Assembly (NCBI GenBank): GCA_947372865.1
Contig: CANBVJ010000003.1
Span: forward strand, 1-64,000
Length of the DNA stretch: 64,000 nucleotides
Direction: 5' to 3'
Source: Comamonadaceae bacterium
GTDB lineage: Bacteria; Pseudomonadota; Gammaproteobacteria; Burkholderiales; Burkholderiaceae_C
Positions 51,742 to 60,848 of this stretch are shown here, in pieces. The position numbers and the translations under genes were made by a program. The notes under the pieces were generated by a model. That model made no database searches, was not told where the DNA came from, and saw only the letters and a program-made list of their open reading frames with translations. Every line of letters begins with the position of its first letter. Positions within the stretch are counted from its first letter, which is position 1.

Positions 51742-52398
51742 ATGAACGGTTTATTCATCAGCTTTGAAGGCATTGACGGCGCAGGCAAGTCCACCCATAT
51801 TGCCGCCCTGGCGCAGGCGTTTGAGGCGCAGGGAAGGGCGGTCACCCTGACCCGCGAGCCCGGTGGCACGCCGCTGGCCGAGACTTTGCGCGCCATGGTG
51901 CTCAATGAACCGATGGACGCGCTAACCGAGTCGCTCTTGGTGTTTGCCGCGCGGCGCGACCACATCGGCCGCGTGATTGCACCCGCTCTGGCCCAGGGCC
52001 GCGTGGTGGTGTGCGACCGTTTTTCGGATGCCACCTTTGCTTACCAGGGCGCCGGGCGCGAATTTGATTGGGACGTATTGCACACGCTGGAGCGCTGGGT
52101 GCAGGGTCCTAGCGCCGCAGCCCTGGCCAACGGCACCGCACCCAAGCTGCTGCAGCCCGACTTGACGCTGTGGTTTGACCTGCCCGCCACCGTGGCGGCG
52201 CAGCGCCTGGCAGGCGCCCGGGTGCCTGACAAGTTTGAGGCGCAGCCAGCCGCTTTTTTTGAAAAAGTATCCGCAGGCTACGCCCGCCGCCTGCGCGAAG
52301 ACCCGGCGCGCTTTGCCCGCATTGACGCCAACCAAGGCCCCGATGGCGTGTGGATGGAAGTGCTGGCTGCCTTGCGCGCCAAAGGCCTGTTGCCATGA
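51742..52398 (+). CDS. tmk: Thymidylate kinase
   Basis: A 218-residue dTMP kinase that makes dTDP for DNA synthesis. The P-loop is [11 protein letters not shown] near residues 7-17, the DR motif is [19 protein letters not shown], and [12 protein letters not shown] carries the substrate-binding arginine. The LID region is in [12 protein letters not shown]. The stop overlaps the holB start by four bases (ATGA). Arrangement tmk-holB-pilZ-tatD is conserved in many proteobacteria. Confidence 0.96.
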
Positions 52399-53438
52399 GC
52401 CCCGCAGCTGCCGAAACCAACGCCCCCGCGCTGGCGCCCTGGATCGCGGCGCAAACCGCTGATTTATTGGCCCAGCGCGGCCACGCCTGGCTGCTGATGG
52501 GGCCGTCCGGCTTGGGGCAATACGACCTGGCGCTGCAACTGGTGCGCGCCTGGCTGTGCGAACACCCCAGCGCCGCCGGGGCCTGTGGCCAATGCGGCAG
52601 CTGCCACGCCATTGAGGTGCGCACCCACGCGGACCTGTGTGTGCTGATGCCTGAGACCTGGATGATCCGCCTCAACTGGCCGCTGAGCGAGCGCGCCCAG
52701 GGCGAGATTGACGACAAAAAGCGCAAGCCCAGCAAGGAAATCCGCGTGGACGCCATGCGCGATGCAGTCGAGTTTTCGCAGCGCACCAGCGCGCGGGGCC
52801 GGGGCAAGGCGGTGCTGGTTTTTCCGGCCGAAGACATGAACAACATCACCGCCAACGCCTTGCTCAAGACGCTGGAAGAGCCGCCGGGCGACGTCAAATT
52901 TGTGCTGGCCAGCGAATCGGCGCACCAGTTGCTGCCCACCATCCGCAGCCGCTGCCTGGGCCACACCATGCGCTGGCCCGACGCGGCCACCAGCCAGCGG
53001 TGGCTGCAAGCCCAGGGCGTGGACGCCGGGCTGGCCCAACAAGCGCTGCTGGCCACGGGCGGTCGGCCCCAGGACGCACTGGCGTTTGCCCAGTCGGGCT
53101 TGGACCTGGCGGTGTGGTCGACCTTTTGCAAAGCCATGGTGCGTGGCGACGTGGCCCTGGTGCGCGACTGGAGCCCGGTCGAACTTTTGGCTACGCAGCA
53201 AAAGCTTTGCCACGATTTGCTGGCTGTGAGCGTGGGCGCGGCGCCGCGTTTTTTTGCTGCCTCGGATTTGCTGCCTGGTGCCTCGGTTGCCACGCTGACG
53301 CAGTGGAGCCGTTCGCTCAACGTGCAGCAGCGCACCATTGACCATCCCTTTAACGCCGGCCTGCTGTTGGAGGCGCTGGTAAGCCAGGCCCAGCAGGTCT
53401 TGTCCGCCTGCGTCGCATCGCCGGGGTCCAGCCGGTAG
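52395..53438 (+). CDS. holB: DNA polymerase III subunit delta prime
   Basis: A 347-residue clamp-loader subunit. The P-loop is degenerate, [11 protein letters not shown], with Gln in place of Lys, as expected since delta prime does not hydrolyse ATP. A zinc-binding cluster CGQCGSCH lies near residues 62-69, and [18 protein letters not shown] with the sensor SRC (PTIRSRC) is typical. An insertion of about 25 residues rich in Lys/Arg ([15 protein letters not shown]) follows the zinc region. The ATG at 52395 overlaps the tmk stop, so the two are coupled. Confidence 0.93.
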
Positions 53439-53890: not shown

Positions 53891-54685
53891 ATGTTCACTG
53901 ATTCTCACTGCCATTTGAATTTTCCAGAGCTCAAAAGTGCGCTTCCCGAAATCCGCCAGGCCATGACTATGGCCCAGGTCAGTCGCGCCCTGTGCATTTG
54001 CACCACGCTGGAGGAGTTTGGCGATGTGCACGGCCTGGCGCTGGAATATGACAACTTTTGGGCAACAGTGGGGGTGCACCCGGACAATGAGGGCGTGACC
54101 GAACCGAGTTTGCAAGACCTGCTGGAACGCGGCGTGCTGCCGCGCGTGGTGGCGGTGGGCGAGACCGGGCTGGACTACTACCGGCTCAACGGCCGCAGCG
54201 TGGCGGACATGGAGTGGCAGCGTGCGCGTTTTCGCACCCACATTCGCGCAGCGCAGGCCTTGAACAAACCGCTGGTGATCCACACCCGCAGTGCATCAGA
54301 CGACACCCTGGCCATTTTGAAAGAGGAGGGCGAGGACGGACGCGCGGGCGCGGCCGGCGGCGTGTTCCATTGCTTTACCGAAACGGCGGCCGTGGCACAG
54401 GCTGCGCTGGAGGCGGGGTTTTACATCTCGTTCTCTGGCATTTTGACCTTTAAAACCGCCCAAGACCTGCGCGATGTGGCTGCCTGGGTGCCCCTGGACC
54501 GCATGTTGATCGAGACCGACAGCCCCTACTTGGCGCCCATGCCTCACCGTGGCAACACGAATAACCCGTCTTATGTGCCCTTTGTGGCGCAGCAAATTGC
54601 CACGCTGCGCGGCTGCAGCGTCGAGGAGGTGGCTGCCGCCACCAGTGTGAATTTCACCAGTTTGTTCTCTGGCGTTGCGGCATGA
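53891..54685 (+). CDS. tatD: TatD-family metal-dependent hydrolase
   Basis: A 264-residue TIM-barrel metal hydrolase with DNase activity in characterised relatives. Metal ligands are in MFTDSHCHLNF, VAVGETGLDYY, LVIHTRSASD, GVFHCFTET and LIETDSPYLAPMPHRG. The ATG at 53891 is directly before the first histidine motif, as in the family; longer readings cross into pilZ. Its stop overlaps the ankyrin-protein start in an ATGA junction. Confidence 0.94.
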   Translation: MFTDSHCHLNFPELKSALPEIRQAMTMAQVSRALCICTTLEEFGDVHGLALEYDNFWATVGVHPDNEGVTEPSLQDLLERGVLPRVVAVGETGLDYYRLNGRSVADMEWQRARFRTHIRAAQALNKPLVIHTRSASDDTLAILKEEGEDGRAGAAGGVFHCFTETAAVAQAALEAGFYISFSGILTFKTAQDLRDVAAWVPLDRMLIETDSPYLAPMPHRGNTNNPSYVPFVAQQIATLRGCSVEEVAAATSVNFTSLFSGVAA

Positions 54686-55341
54686 TTAATTTAATTAATT
54701 ACTTTAGATACATCGTCTATCTATTTGTTTTTATTGGATTTTCTTGTGCTAATGCGGGCTCCTACGAGGACTTTTTCCAGGCCGTCACGCGTGACGACGA
54801 CGCCAAAGTCAGCCAGTTGATTGCGCGCGGCTTTGACGCCAACACCATGGGCCCAGCGGGCGCGCCGGCTTTGTTGACGGCGATCCGCGAGCCTTCACCC
54901 AAGGTCATTGGTGTGCTGCTCAAAGTGCCAGGCATTCAGGCCGAAGTTCGCAACGCCAAAGACGAAAGCGCCTTGATGCTTGCGGCGCTGGCGGGCATGC
55001 AGGATGTCTGCGCGCGGCTGATTGCGTTGGACGCCGATGTCAACAAGACCGGCTGGACGCCGCTGCATTACGCAGCCACCGGCGGCCACGACGCTGTAAT
55101 TCGCTTGCTGCTTGAAAATTTTGCCTACATCGACGCTGAGTCGCCCAACCAGACCACGCCCTTGATGATGGCTGCCATGTACGGCAGCGCGAATAGCGTC
55201 AAGCTGCTGCTGGAAGCCGGCGCCGACGCCACGCTGCGCAACGCGGCAGGCCTGAGCGCTCTTGATTTTGCTGAACGCGGCGCACGACCGGACGCCTATG
55301 GCGCGATTGCCAAGCATCTCAAAGCCGGCCCGGGCACCTGA
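54682..55341 (+). CDS. Secreted ankyrin-repeat protein
   Basis: A 219-residue protein with a Sec signal peptide (about residues 1-24, cleavage near CANA) and four to five ankyrin repeats, for example KDESALMLAALAGMQDVCARLIALDAD, TGWTPLHYAATGGHDAVIRLLLE and TTPLMMAAMYGSANSVKLLLEAGAD. Ankyrin repeats mediate protein contacts; in the periplasm a partner is unknown. The first 70 bases are strikingly AT-rich compared with the rest of the gene. It overlaps the tatD stop by four bases, so it is the last gene of that operon, and it ends 37 bases before the dif-like site. Confidence 0.9.
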   Translation: MINLINYFRYIVYLFVFIGFSCANAGSYEDFFQAVTRDDDAKVSQLIARGFDANTMGPAGAPALLTAIREPSPKVIGVLLKVPGIQAEVRNAKDESALMLAALAGMQDVCARLIALDADVNKTGWTPLHYAATGGHDAVIRLLLENFAYIDAESPNQTTPLMMAAMYGSANSVKLLLEAGADATLRNAAGLSALDFAERGARPDAYGAIAKHLKAGPGT

Positions 55342-55378: not shown

Positions 55379-55406
55379 ACTTCATACGATGTATATTATG
55401 TTAACA
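55379..55406 (+). other. dif: Probable dif chromosome-dimer resolution site
   Basis: The centre and right arm are TGTATA and TTATGTTAACA, which match the E. coli dif centre (TGTATA) and XerD arm (TTATGTTAAAT) at 15 of 17 positions. The left, XerC-side arm ACTTCATACGA is looser, about 4 of 11 positions by my comparison. The 28-bp layout is 11 + 6 + 11. The spacer between the ankyrin and ureohydrolase genes is intergenic and AT-rich. GGGNAGGG octamers seen by eye point at this site from both sides. XerC/XerD would resolve chromosome dimers here. Confidence 0.72.
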
Positions 55407-56707: not shown

Positions 56708-57499
56708 ATGAAAACCATCATTTATGAACAAGTGGGCGGGGTGGCCACCGTCACGCTCAACCGGCCCGAGGCGCTCAACGCGCTATCTTGGGAGATGAAC
56801 CACGAACTCGCCGAACTGAGTTCTCGCCTAGAGTTGGACGACAGCGTGCGCTGCGTGGTGCTGCAAGGCGCTGGCGACCATTTCATGGCCGGGGGCGACA
56901 TCAAGGGGTTTAGCTCCGGCCCGAGCGACGCGCAGTCGCGAAAGATCGGCTTTGAGCGCGGCATTGCCGAGACCCACAGCATCATCACCCTGCTCAAACG
57001 CATGCCCAAGCCGGTGATTGCCAGCGTACAAGGGGCGGTGGCCGGGTTTGGCGTGTCGCTCATGAGCGCCTGTGATCTGGTGGTGGCTGCGGACAACTGC
57101 TACTTCACCCTGGCCTATTGCCATATCGGCACCACGCCCGACGGCGGCGCCACCTACGCCCTGCCCCGCACCGTGGGCACCAAGCTGGCGATGGAAATTG
57201 CGCTCTTGGGCGACCGTTTTGACGCCGCGCGCGCCTTGCAACTGGGCCTGGTCAACCGGGTGGTGCCAGCGGCGCAGCGCCAAGAAGTAGCAGCCACCTT
57301 GGCGGCACGCCTGGCCAAAGGGCCCACCGCTGTTTATGGCCGCACTAAAAAGCTGATCAACGAATCGCACAACCACACGCTGGCCGAGCAGTTGCAGGCG
57401 GAACAAGAGAACTTTGTCGCATCGGCCCTGGGTGCCGACTTTGCCGAGGGCATCGCGGCCTTTGTAGCAAAGCGCAAGCCGAACTTTGTCGGCCACTGA
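56708..57499 (+). CDS. Enoyl-CoA hydratase/isomerase family protein
   Basis: A 263-residue crotonase-fold protein. It has LNRPEALNALSWEM, the oxyanion loop GAGDHFMAGGDIKGF and the second oxyanion/helix region VQGAVAGFGVSLMSACDLVVA, then THIG-like FTLAYCHIGTTPDGG. The second catalytic Glu of bifunctional hydratases is replaced by Gly or Asp in this region, so it might be an isomerase or a hydratase of unusual substrate. It would act in acyl-CoA breakdown. It precedes a nitronate monooxygenase gene by 38 bases on the same strand. Confidence 0.88.
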   Translation: MKTIIYEQVGGVATVTLNRPEALNALSWEMNHELAELSSRLELDDSVRCVVLQGAGDHFMAGGDIKGFSSGPSDAQSRKIGFERGIAETHSIITLLKRMPKPVIASVQGAVAGFGVSLMSACDLVVAADNCYFTLAYCHIGTTPDGGATYALPRTVGTKLAMEIALLGDRFDAARALQLGLVNRVVPAAQRQEVAATLAARLAKGPTAVYGRTKKLINESHNHTLAEQLQAEQENFVASALGADFAEGIAAFVAKRKPNFVGH

Positions 57500-57537
57500 T
57501 CCCCATTTTTTTACAACAAACCAAACGGAGGACCCCT

Positions 57538-58515
57538 ATGAAAACCTTGATCACAGAAATGTTCGGCATCCAGCACCCCATCATTCAGGGGGGAATGCAC
57601 TACGTGGGCTTTGCCGAATTGGCTGCCGCCGTCTCCAACGCCGGCGGCCTGGGCATCATCACCGGTCTGACCCAGCGCACGCCCGAGGCGCTGGCCGCCG
57701 AGATTGCCCGCTGCCGCACCATGACAGACAAACCCTTTGGCGTGAACCTGACCTTTTTGCCCACCGTGAGCTCGCCCGACTATCCGGGCTACATCAAAGC
57801 CATCATCGACGGGGGCGTCAAGGCGGTGGAAACCGCCGGCAACAACCCGCAAAAGTGGCTGCCCGCGCTGCACGAGGCCGGGGTCAAGGTGATCCACAAA
57901 TGCACCTCGGTGCGCCACGCGCTCAAGGCCGAGGCGATTGGCTGCGACGCTGTCAGCGTGGACGGTTTTGAGTGCGGCGGCCACCCCGGCGAGGACGATA
58001 TTCCCAACTTCATCTTGCTGCCGCGCGCGGCCGAGTCGCTCAAAATTCCCTTTGTGGCCTCGGGCGGCATGGCCGACGGCCGCTCACTTGTGGCGGCCTT
58101 GGCGCTGGGCGCCGAGGGCATCAACATGGGCACGCGCTTTATTGCCACGCAAGAGGCGCCAGTGCATGACAAGGTCAAGCAAGCCATCGTGGACGCGAGT
58201 GAGCTCGATACCCGCCTGGTGATGCGCCCCTTGCGCAACACCGAACGCGTGCTGCGCAACGCGGCGGTTGACCGACTGCTGGAAAAAGAACGTACGCTGG
58301 GCGCCAACATCAAGTTCGAGGACATCATTGACGAGGTGGCCGGCGTCTATCCGCGCATCATGCAAAACGGCGACATGGAAGCTGGCGCCTGGTCGTGCGG
58401 CATGGTGGCAGGGCTGATTCACGATGTGCCAACCGTCAAGGAACTGATCGACCGCATCATGGCGCAGGCCGAAGGCATCATCTACCGGCGCCTGGTCGGA
58501 CTGGGCCACAGCTAA
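57538..58515 (+). CDS. Nitronate monooxygenase-like FMN oxidoreductase
   Basis: A 325-residue TIM-barrel flavoenzyme of the 2-nitropropane dioxygenase family. FMN-binding features are IQGGMHYVGFAELAAAVSNAGGLG, the phosphate-binding VASGGMADGRSLVAALALGAEG and the general-base histidine in FECGGHPGEDDIP. Family members oxidise nitronates or act as NADH:quinone reductases. The EGINMGTRF segment is typical of the class that often sits with acyl-CoA genes, as here beside an enoyl-CoA hydratase. A GGAGG site precedes the ATG. Confidence 0.9.
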   Translation: MKTLITEMFGIQHPIIQGGMHYVGFAELAAAVSNAGGLGIITGLTQRTPEALAAEIARCRTMTDKPFGVNLTFLPTVSSPDYPGYIKAIIDGGVKAVETAGNNPQKWLPALHEAGVKVIHKCTSVRHALKAEAIGCDAVSVDGFECGGHPGEDDIPNFILLPRAAESLKIPFVASGGMADGRSLVAALALGAEGINMGTRFIATQEAPVHDKVKQAIVDASELDTRLVMRPLRNTERVLRNAAVDRLLEKERTLGANIKFEDIIDEVAGVYPRIMQNGDMEAGAWSCGMVAGLIHDVPTVKELIDRIMAQAEGIIYRRLVGLGHS

Positions 58516-58522
58516 GCCGTGC

Positions 58523-59431
58523 CTAAATATGGCCCCAAACCAGTAGCGCATCGCGGCCCTGGGTGACCAAATCCACCTTGGCGCCCACGGGTAGCAGCAC
58601 TTTGGTGGTCACATGGCCAAAGGGTAGGCCGGTGAGCACCGGCACCTTCACTTGGCTGCGCAACCAGCCGACCACGCTGGCGAGTTTGAAGCCTTTGTCG
58701 TGCGGCACTAGCTTGTAGTTGGTGAACTGGCCCAGCACAATCGCTTTTTGCTGCGCCAGCACGCCACTGTGCAAAAGTTGGGTCAGCATGCGCTCCAGGC
58801 GATAAGGGTGTTCGCCCACGTCTTCCAGAAACAATACACCGCCCCTGACCTTGGGCAAATACGGCGTCCCCAAGAGCGACACCAGCACCGCCAGATTGCC
58901 GCCCCAGAGCTTGGCGTTGTGTACTTCTAGCGCGGCGTTGGCCTCGGTTAAAGGCAGGCGCCAGCCCGCGCCCTCCCCTTGCTCCAGCAGCAAATCGTCA
59001 AAGCAGGCTTGCATGATCTCGTCCGGGCCGTCTGGCGCGCCAAAGTCTTCGCCAAGCGCCGGGCCTTGCCAGGTAATGGCACCGGTTTTGGCCATGACCG
59101 CCAGCTCAAAGGCCGTGAAATCGCTCAGGCCCACAAACTGCGTGCCCGTCTCAACCGCCTTGGCAATCGCGGCATAGGGCAGCGCGGGTAAAAGCCGCGT
59201 GAGCCCATAACCGCCGCGCGTAACCATGGCCACATCGGCGCCGCTGGCCGCCGCCCGGCCAATGGCCGCCAGCCGCGTGGCGTCGTCACCCGCAAAGCGC
59301 AGATGGCTAGTCAGGGCGTCAGCGTCTACCTCCACCTCGTGCCCCAGGGCGCGCAGGTGCTTAAGCCCGCGCTTGAAAGCCGCCTTGTCGCGCACCGCGC
59401 CCGAAGGCGAAAAAATGTAGATGTGGCTCAT
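58523..59431 (-). CDS. ldcA: LD-carboxypeptidase (muramoyltetrapeptide carboxypeptidase)
   Basis: A 302-residue cytoplasmic serine peptidase of the S66 family that removes D-Ala from recycled murein tetrapeptides. Visible are the N-terminal IYIFSPSGAV, MVTRGGYGLTRLLP, the nucleophile Ser in VGLSDFTAFE, the acid in LEDVGEHPYRLERM and GLPFGHVTTKVLLPVG with the histidine. The stop lies 7 bases from the end of the nitronate-monooxygenase gene on the other strand (convergent). The ATG at 59431 gives MSHIYIFSPSG, the family N-terminus. Confidence 0.93.
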   Translation of the reverse strand: MSHIYIFSPSGAVRDKAAFKRGLKHLRALGHEVEVDADALTSHLRFAGDDATRLAAIGRAAASGADVAMVTRGGYGLTRLLPALPYAAIAKAVETGTQFVGLSDFTAFELAVMAKTGAITWQGPALGEDFGAPDGPDEIMQACFDDLLLEQGEGAGWRLPLTEANAALEVHNAKLWGGNLAVLVSLLGTPYLPKVRGGVLFLEDVGEHPYRLERMLTQLLHSGVLAQQKAIVLGQFTNYKLVPHDKGFKLASVVGWLRSQVKVPVLTGLPFGHVTTKVLLPVGAKVDLVTQGRDALLVWGHI

Positions 59432-59465
59432 AGAAATGAATTGGGGTCAGATTCCAATTATTGGA

Positions 59466-60848
59466 TTAGCTTTTAGGGTGAAAAAACTGCAGCGCCTGCT
59501 GCGCAATGGGCTCGCCGTGCTCTTGCACAAAGTGGCCGGCTTGGGGCAAAAGCATCACTTCGCTGCAGCCGCGAATCTGCTTTTGCAAAGCGCGCATGAC
59601 TGGCTCGCCCAGCACCGGGTCTTGCTGGCCAATGGCCATCAGCGTCTGGCCAGCCCAGTCGTGCTGCCAAAACGCCTGGGCGCGGCGCGATACTTCCGCA
59701 CCCGGCGAATCCGCAAACTCGGGCACCATGGGCGGAAAAGCGCGCAGCGCTGCGCGGTGGCCCCGGTCGGGAAAAGGGGCGTTGTAGGCCTGCCACTCAG
59801 GCTCGGCCATCTGGGCGTTGCCCCGGGCAAACAGGCGGCCCACGTCAAATTCCGGGTTTTTGTCGCACCACTGGCGCCAGGCCAAAAAGCCAGGCGACAA
59901 GGGCTGCTCGCCGGTAGCCAGCGTAGTGTTCATCACCAGCAGTCCCCGGTAGCGCTGGGGCGCGTCCATGGGCAGGGTCAGGCCCAAAATGCCACCCCAG
60001 TCTTGCACCACCAGCACCACATTGCGCAAATCAAGCCGTTCCACCAACTCCAACAGCACCTGGCGATGGAAGTCAAAGCCATGAAACCCGTCTTTTTTGG
60101 GCTTGTCGCTTTTGCCAAACCCGATCAAATCGGGCGCCACCACCCGGTGCCCTGCCCCGGCAAAGACCGGAATCATCTTGCGGTACAGGTAGCTCCAGGC
60201 CGGGTTGCCGTGCAAACACAGGTAGGTGGTGTGCGCGTATGCGGGCCCCACGTCCAGGTAGTGCATGCGCAAACCGGCCAGCACTGGTAAGTCGCTCAGG
60301 AAATGGGGCGGCCAGGGGTAGTCGGGCACGTCGGTAAAACAGGCATCTGGCGTGCGCAAGGCGTCGTCGCGGACCGGGTTCATATTCAACCTTTTGGGTT
60401 TGAAGAAGTCTTGCAGCATAGACGCACAGCCGGCGGCCAGCACGCCACCCTGCACTTGCGTTTGGTGGTTCAGGGCGTCTTGACCAAACAGATTGAGCAC
60501 CGAGCCCGCCGCCCCCGTGCGCGGGTCCACCGCACCAAACACAACCCGCTTGAGGCGTGCGTGCAGCATCGCGCCGCTGCACATGGCGCAGGGCTCCAGG
60601 GTGACAAACAACTCGCAGCCGTCTAAGCGGTAATTGCCCAATGCCAAGGCTGCCGCGCGCAAGGCCGCGATCTCAGCATGGGCCGTGGGGTCATGCTGGC
60701 CAATCGGGGCATTGCGGCCGGTGGCGATCAGCGCACCGTCTTTAACCACCACAGCGCCCACCGGCACTTCGCCGTCTTGGGCGGCCAGCGCCGCCTGCTC
60801 TAGCGCCAGGCGCATCCAGTGCGCATCTGTGGGCTGACTTTCAGGCAT
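59466..60848 (-). CDS. tadA: tRNA adenosine deaminase TadA fused to DhlA-like haloalkane dehalogenase
   Basis: A single 460-residue frame encodes two enzymes. Residues 1-150 are TadA, the tRNA-Arg A34-to-inosine deaminase: zinc ligand His57 and catalytic Glu59 in TAHAEI, Cys87 and Cys90 in EPCAMC. A short linker (NMNPVRDD, about 156-162) leads to an alpha/beta hydrolase very like haloalkane dehalogenase DhlA: HGNPAWSYLYRKMIP, PDLIGFGKSDKP, nucleophile Asp283 with halide-binding Trp284 in VQDWGG, and the His in QAGHFVQEHGEP near the C-terminus. No stop or frameshift separates them. The ATG at 60848 lies past the paiB stop; a longer reading overlaps that gene. Dehalogenase activity itself is inference. 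Confidence 0.9.
   Translation of the reverse strand: MPESQPTDAHWMRLALEQAALAAQDGEVPVGAVVVKDGALIATGRNAPIGQHDPTAHAEIAALRAAALALGNYRLDGCELFVTLEPCAMCSGAMLHARLKRVVFGAVDPRTGAAGSVLNLFGQDALNHQTQVQGGVLAAGCASMLQDFFKPKRLNMNPVRDDALRTPDACFTDVPDYPWPPHFLSDLPVLAGLRMHYLDVGPAYAHTTYLCLHGNPAWSYLYRKMIPVFAGAGHRVVAPDLIGFGKSDKPKKDGFHGFDFHRQVLLELVERLDLRNVVLVVQDWGGILGLTLPMDAPQRYRGLLVMNTTLATGEQPLSPGFLAWRQWCDKNPEFDVGRLFARGNAQMAEPEWQAYNAPFPDRGHRAALRAFPPMVPEFADSPGAEVSRRAQAFWQHDWAGQTLMAIGQQDPVLGEPVMRALQKQIRGCSEVMLLPQAGHFVQEHGEPIAQQALQFFHPKS

Follow-up and report, generated by a model that had tools for sequence, protein, structure and literature searches.

The closest described systems are the dif site of E. coli, with its XerC and XerD recombinases, FtsK and the FtsK-orienting octamer GGGNAGGG (KOPS), the dif of Rhodoferax ferrireducens, and the KOPS switches reported in Burkholderia and Cupriavidus. 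The locus described here lies at positions 55,379-55,406 of a 64,000-nucleotide stretch (the window), the first part (1-64,000) of a contig of 107,035 bases. It shares with E. coli the centre plus XerD arm (15 of 17 positions), the octamer, a polarity switch at dif and the partner genes, and differs in its XerC arm, which matches at only 4 of 11 positions, giving 19 of 28 for the whole site. The holB operon of E. coli is presumably hundreds of kb away from its dif. A nearer counterpart is the dif of R. ferrireducens DSM 15236, given as ACTTGATACGATGTATATTATGTTAAGT by Carnoy and Roten (2009, PMC2731167), which, as far as the accessible text goes, resembles the present site in its 28-bp length, centre, ATACGA inner XerC half and intergenic setting, and possibly in its location near the skew maximum. 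It differs at positions 5, 27 and 28 of 28 only, so that an alignment with known betaproteobacterial sites, suggested in the preliminary description of this DNA, yields a close match; by the same text, the unusual type of XerC arm is already published for this species. The accessible part of that paper holds no description of the gene neighbourhood of the R. ferrireducens dif, and states that dif is without an apparent specific genetic environment. The study of KOPS in Burkholderia, Cupriavidus and other replicons (PMC13342612), in its accessible part, concerns the same class or order, the same octamer and a switch at dif, and differs in covering other genera and in focusing on large secondary replicons. 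A search for literature joining dif, XerC and Comamonadaceae found none.

The 28 bp at 55,379-55,406 (plus strand) are almost certainly the single chromosomal dif of a betaproteobacterium that appears to belong to the Rhodoferax group. The site comprises two 11-bp arms around a 6-bp centre, namely the XerC arm ACTTCATACGA (55,379-55,389, plus strand), assigned to XerC by analogy with published dif sites, the central hexamer TGTATA (55,390-55,395, plus strand), and the well-conserved XerD arm TTATGTTAACA (55,396-55,406, plus strand). The agreement of centre and XerD arm with E. coli at 15 of 17 positions, from which the site was originally proposed, is correct, as is its placement in an intergenic AT-rich gap: 151 bp separate an ankyrin-repeat gene from a convergent arginase-family gene, with a G+C content of 0.48 in the gap and 0.25 in the dif site, versus 0.63 in the window. 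A search for further copies, also proposed at the outset, found one match to the 15-mer core at up to two mismatches, that at the locus itself, in an assembly of 3,008,539 bases in 84 contigs with an estimated completeness of 95.6%.

Among 37 same-genus genomes, this one included, 34 have exactly one dif match at up to one mismatch. The other three (G021, G030 and G036) have no match at this threshold, which counts against the dif reading, and G021, which is 99% complete, has none at up to three mismatches of the 21-mer. No homologue of the ankyrin gene was found in these three genomes or in G014, compatible with loss of dif or an assembly gap. Thirty of the 34 same-genus sites were fetched for comparison, and 29 of them contain the inner XerC half ATACGA. 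In the sole match of G014 (locus L023, at about 1485-1530), the centre and XerD arm are intact and unrelated sequence replaces the XerC arm, which may reflect an element junction, contamination or an assembly fault. A scoring matrix was built from 28 same-genus sites, leaving out the present site and dropping L023 for its missing XerC arm. With this matrix, 55,379-55,406 scores 56.1 of a possible 57.6 bits, compared with 5.2 bits for the next-best score in the 429 kb of this genome examined and 10.9 bits for the best score in 20 shuffled windows. More widely, the family dif 21-mer occurs in at least 118 stretches of named genomes, the genera among the matches listed including Rhodoferax, Acidovorax, Comamonas, Polaromonas, Limnohabitans and Curvibacter; the exact 28-mer of the window is present in 4 of the 118 matches listed. 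Two genomes contain double sites: in G040 (locus L236), 7.9 kb separate two dif-like sites, of which one lacks a normal XerC arm, and contig C1 of G196 has two perfect dif cores 29 kb apart on opposite strands. These are possibly integrated elements or duplications at dif.

The polarity of the octamer GGGNAGGG switches around the site. Ten plus-strand copies (1432, 4762, 11,002, 22,250, 25,190, 29,986, 39,677, 41,922, 44,272 and 51,831; span 1432-51,838) and three minus-strand copies (57,159, 58,971 and 60,150; span 57,159-60,157) point toward dif, and an exhaustive search of the window recovered all 13 at the positions first read by eye. It had also been stated that only plus-strand copies lie to the left and only minus-strand copies to the right. 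This is true of the left side; on the right, a fourth copy at 59,970, missed in that reading, is on the plus strand and points away from dif, which counts against the dif reading. The strand bias extends over the 107,035-base contig, with 10 plus-strand and no minus-strand copies left of dif and 1 and 9, respectively, to its right (Fisher P = 1.2e-4); 19 of the 20 octamers agree in pointing at dif, and the best single switch point lies between 51,831 and 57,159, an interval containing dif. Because the count in the window is at chance level (14 versus a mean of 12.3 in shuffles, 37 of 100 shuffles having at least 14), the octamer evidence is one of polarity and not of number. Across the genome the octamer is over-represented, with 267 and 206 copies on the two strands (473) versus 71 and 79 (150) for the reversed pattern, and two further contigs of this genome, C1 (30 plus, 2 minus) and C2 (0 plus, 12 minus), are distributed as expected of single-replichore pieces. 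In the 320 kb around dif of the complete relatives G001 and G007, 65 of 74 and 69 of 73 copies point toward dif, and the best switch interval contains dif. When octamers were ranked by the frequency with which they point at dif in six arms (those of this genome, G001 and G007), GGGNAGGG came out at the head of 71,188 one-gap octamers, with 153 copies toward dif and 14 away, and GGGCAGGG ranked first of 34,195 octamers, the latter also ranking first (of 31,424) in G001 and G007 alone.

The proposal that the window may span the replication terminus is supported by the octamer switch that brackets dif, and by the position of dif opposite dnaA in the two complete relatives, on which this position rests, the present genome being split into contigs. 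On the 3,763,024-base chromosome of G001, dnaA (198) and dif (1,951,705) are 52% of the circle apart; on that of G007, of 3,889,336 bases, dnaA (652,563) and dif (2,503,493) are 48% apart. A turning point of GC skew near 55.4 kb, likewise anticipated, was recovered in part. The skew on the contig is weak and changes sign at dif (+0.0086 to the left, -0.0162 to the right), and the cumulative maximum lies 21.4 kb to the right of dif, which counts against the dif reading. This distance is close to the third quartile of published dif-to-skew-peak distances, measured on whole chromosomes, according to the accessible text of Carnoy and Roten (2009, PMC2731167). In the 320-kb stretches, the cumulative skew reaches its peak at a distance of 66 bp from dif in G001 and of about 2 kb in G007. 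GC skew was dropped as the main test, its signal on this contig being too weak.

Genes predicted to encode XerC, XerD and an FtsK with a gamma domain are present in the genome. XerD scores above its family cut-off (344.2 versus 329.6 bits) and aligns with the solved E. coli XerD over 285 residues, keeping the motifs that surround the catalytic residues. The second Xer protein has XerC as its best match but falls below the cut-off (310.1 versus 335.15 bits), which counts against the dif reading. A single FtsK-gamma domain (98.5 bits) contains the helix GYNRAARxxE, the same as in two solved FtsK proteins, whose residues presumably read KOPS. Together with the first rank of GGGNAGGG, this helix supports, at the level of sequence, the earlier suggestion that the species uses the E. 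coli octamer. By analogy with E. coli, XerC would bind 55,379-55,389 and XerD 55,396-55,406, while FtsK would load on GGGNAGGG and travel along both arms toward dif, there activating XerD, so that the XerC/XerD pair would resolve chromosome dimers at division.

The dif site is at the downstream end of a run of genes that are all transcribed toward it on the plus strand. These are an mltG-like gene (YceG family, PF02618; 50,698-51,714), the thymidylate kinase gene tmk (PF02223; 51,742-52,398), the DNA polymerase III delta-prime gene holB (PF13177, with TIGR00678 at 164 bits, below cut-off; 52,350-53,438, start uncertain), a PilZ-domain gene (PF07238; 53,461-53,874), tatD for a TatD-related DNase (PF01026; 53,891-54,685), and the ankyrin-repeat gene (PF12796 and others; 54,682-55,341), which ends 37 bp before dif. 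From the XerD side, the arginase-family gene (PF00491; 55,493-56,542, minus strand) converges on dif. In 22 of the 29 other same-genus loci, no more than 160 bp lie between the end of the ankyrin match and the XerC arm; in one this gap is 910 bp, in one tatD takes the place next to dif, and in five neither gene was seen (one of these with 62 bp of flank only). Among the 118 named-genome matches listed, which partly overlap the same-genus set and include some flanks too short to tell, an ankyrin gene is found on the side of the XerC arm in 73 (59 of them at 400 bp or less) and on the opposite, XerD side in 7, and the arginase-family gene is found on the XerD side in 4. In a comparison of 1,225 pairs drawn from 50 loci, with genes unselected, open reading frames within 2 kb are common to 38.2% of pairs on the XerC side versus 12.8% on the XerD side.

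This neighbourhood extends beyond the family. Of 11 dif loci belonging to further families of the order, six have the run (holB and tmk) beside dif, one of these six on the XerD side. These 11 loci gave rise to the idea of a holB-dif linkage, and counts are therefore also given without their genomes. The holB region, with 3 kb of upstream and 8 kb of downstream DNA, was scanned in 47 genomes, each representing a different one of the order's other families; f47, with 639 bp of downstream DNA, was dropped (n=46). Of the genomes that had raised the idea, ten were scanned; f7, found by its dif, was left out, and f41 was without a holB listing. The scan used a matrix of 17 published dif sites (shuffled maximum 13.1 bits) and a 17-bit cut-off chosen after the scores had been seen, by which f16 (14.9) and f30 (15.6) are not counted. 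A dif-like site was found in 16 of 46 families (11 of 36 without the ten idea-raising genomes), 12 of the 16 lying within about 0.3 kb of a tatD or ankyrin match. The XerC arm faces the genes in 13 and is reversed in 3, and none of the 16 lies in the 3 kb upstream of holB. Within the family of the present genome, G084 has a dif-like site 7.7 kb downstream of holB; the scanned holB region contains no such site in G122 and G155, also of this family, or in G087 and G125. In the class outside the order, a dif-like site is beside holB in 7 of 40 families, all in the same orientation, 6 of these 40 genomes having less than 5 kb of downstream DNA.

A genome-wide pattern search gave a dif-like match in 36 of the 47 order genomes and in 30 of the 40 from elsewhere in the class, on the contig of holB in 26 and 16, respectively. 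Some of these matches are weak, the A+T-rich G116 and G078 also matching the reversed control, and where a genome has two matches the one nearer holB was used. Matches within 10 kb downstream of holB number 16 in the order and 8 in the rest of the class, or 24 of the 66 beta- and gammaproteobacterial genomes, one per family, with a detectable site (18 of 57 without the idea-raising genomes), where chance would give about 0.4 in 66. Because the families share ancestry, this is to be read as conserved linkage and not as independent events, and the linkage most likely goes back to an ancestor of beta- and gammaproteobacteria. The match is on the strand of holB in 15 of 24 tabulated pairs of the order and in 16 of 16 of the class outside it. 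The tabulation covers 24 of the 26 same-contig pairs of the order, omitting G051, whose two matches lie on different strands and are each over 900 kb distant from holB, and G116, which has a weak match 49 kb upstream; the count of 16 within 10 kb is unaffected. The gene dnaX, distinguished from holB by having a longer frame, served as a control: of 29 class genomes, one (G186) has it at less than 10 kb from a dif-like match, and this is a second, weaker match. No earlier report of dif beside holB or tatD was found in a mostly non-subscription literature, including a term search of Kono et al. 2011 (PMC3025954).

Phages carrying the family dif exist, the 21-mer being present in 11 viral contigs (L223-L233) that all encode a Zot homologue, and a Zot homologue is also found at 3 of the 118 named-genome dif loci listed; the site could accordingly be an attachment scar or a dif copy left by a filamentous phage using Xer. 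This is extremely improbable and is not favoured, as the genome has one dif copy only, the neighbours are ankyrin and arginase-family genes without phage genes, 54,682-55,600 has no match in the phage collection, and the ankyrin gene adjoins dif in most same-genus loci. The viral contigs themselves look like filamentous phages integrating at the family dif by host XerCD, judging from their gene content. A Rep_trans-type replication protein gave nine matches across these 11 contigs and one genome locus. The dif loci with a Zot homologue in Acidovorax delafieldii DSM 64 (L115) and Comamonas sp. B21-038 (L163), and that of L204, are likely filamentous prophages at dif. The polarity of the octamer could also be a by-product of strand composition, through the G richness of the leading strand, instead of FtsK guidance, and several of 11 control octamers of the same composition are indeed polarised in G001 and G007 (e.g. 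GG.GAGGG, 45 toward and 6 away in G001). Against this, in all three genomes none of the other 11 patterns is as strongly polarised as GGGNAGGG, which also leads the one-gap octamers, and the present contig is almost without GC skew, yet 19 of its 20 octamers agree. We consider a purely compositional origin very unlikely, and retain the reading of the site as a dif toward which FtsK would be guided by KOPS.

For the gene neighbourhood of this dif, inheritance and slow rearrangement alone, with a pairing that has no function, are probably a sufficient explanation. The distance between dif and holB is loose, pairs on one contig being from about 1 kb to over 300 kb apart. Of the 24 tabulated pairs of the order, 9 have the reversed orientation, and linkage is lost in many families, no dif-like site of at least 17 bits being found within 8 kb downstream of holB in 30 of 46. 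Leading-strand genes are in general transcribed toward dif, so that the direction of the run is expected of any such gene. Evidence on the other side is that in 12 of 46 families dif and the run's last gene are still no more than about 0.3 kb apart, and that 38.2% of locus pairs share the XerC-side flank, versus 12.8% for the XerD side. A selected role for the pairing of dif with these genes is possible; for example, the 3' end of an essential run could provide a rearrangement-poor anchor for the terminus. That selection, beyond inertia, tends to keep dif at the downstream end of mltG-tmk-holB-tatD across beta- and gammaproteobacteria, with its XerC arm toward the genes, seems to us rather unlikely.

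The dif described here marks where the terminus lies in a genome assembled as 84 contigs. The site itself is ordinary and of a type published in 2009; of more importance is the gene neighbourhood it shares, which is the part that a specialist might not expect. It is at odds with the 2009 statement, in the accessible text of PMC2731167, that dif has no apparent specific environment. Gene order offers a way to look for dif sites that have diverged in sequence, and the neighbourhood raises the question of what keeps a site of 28 bp next to this run even as the sequence on its other side changes.
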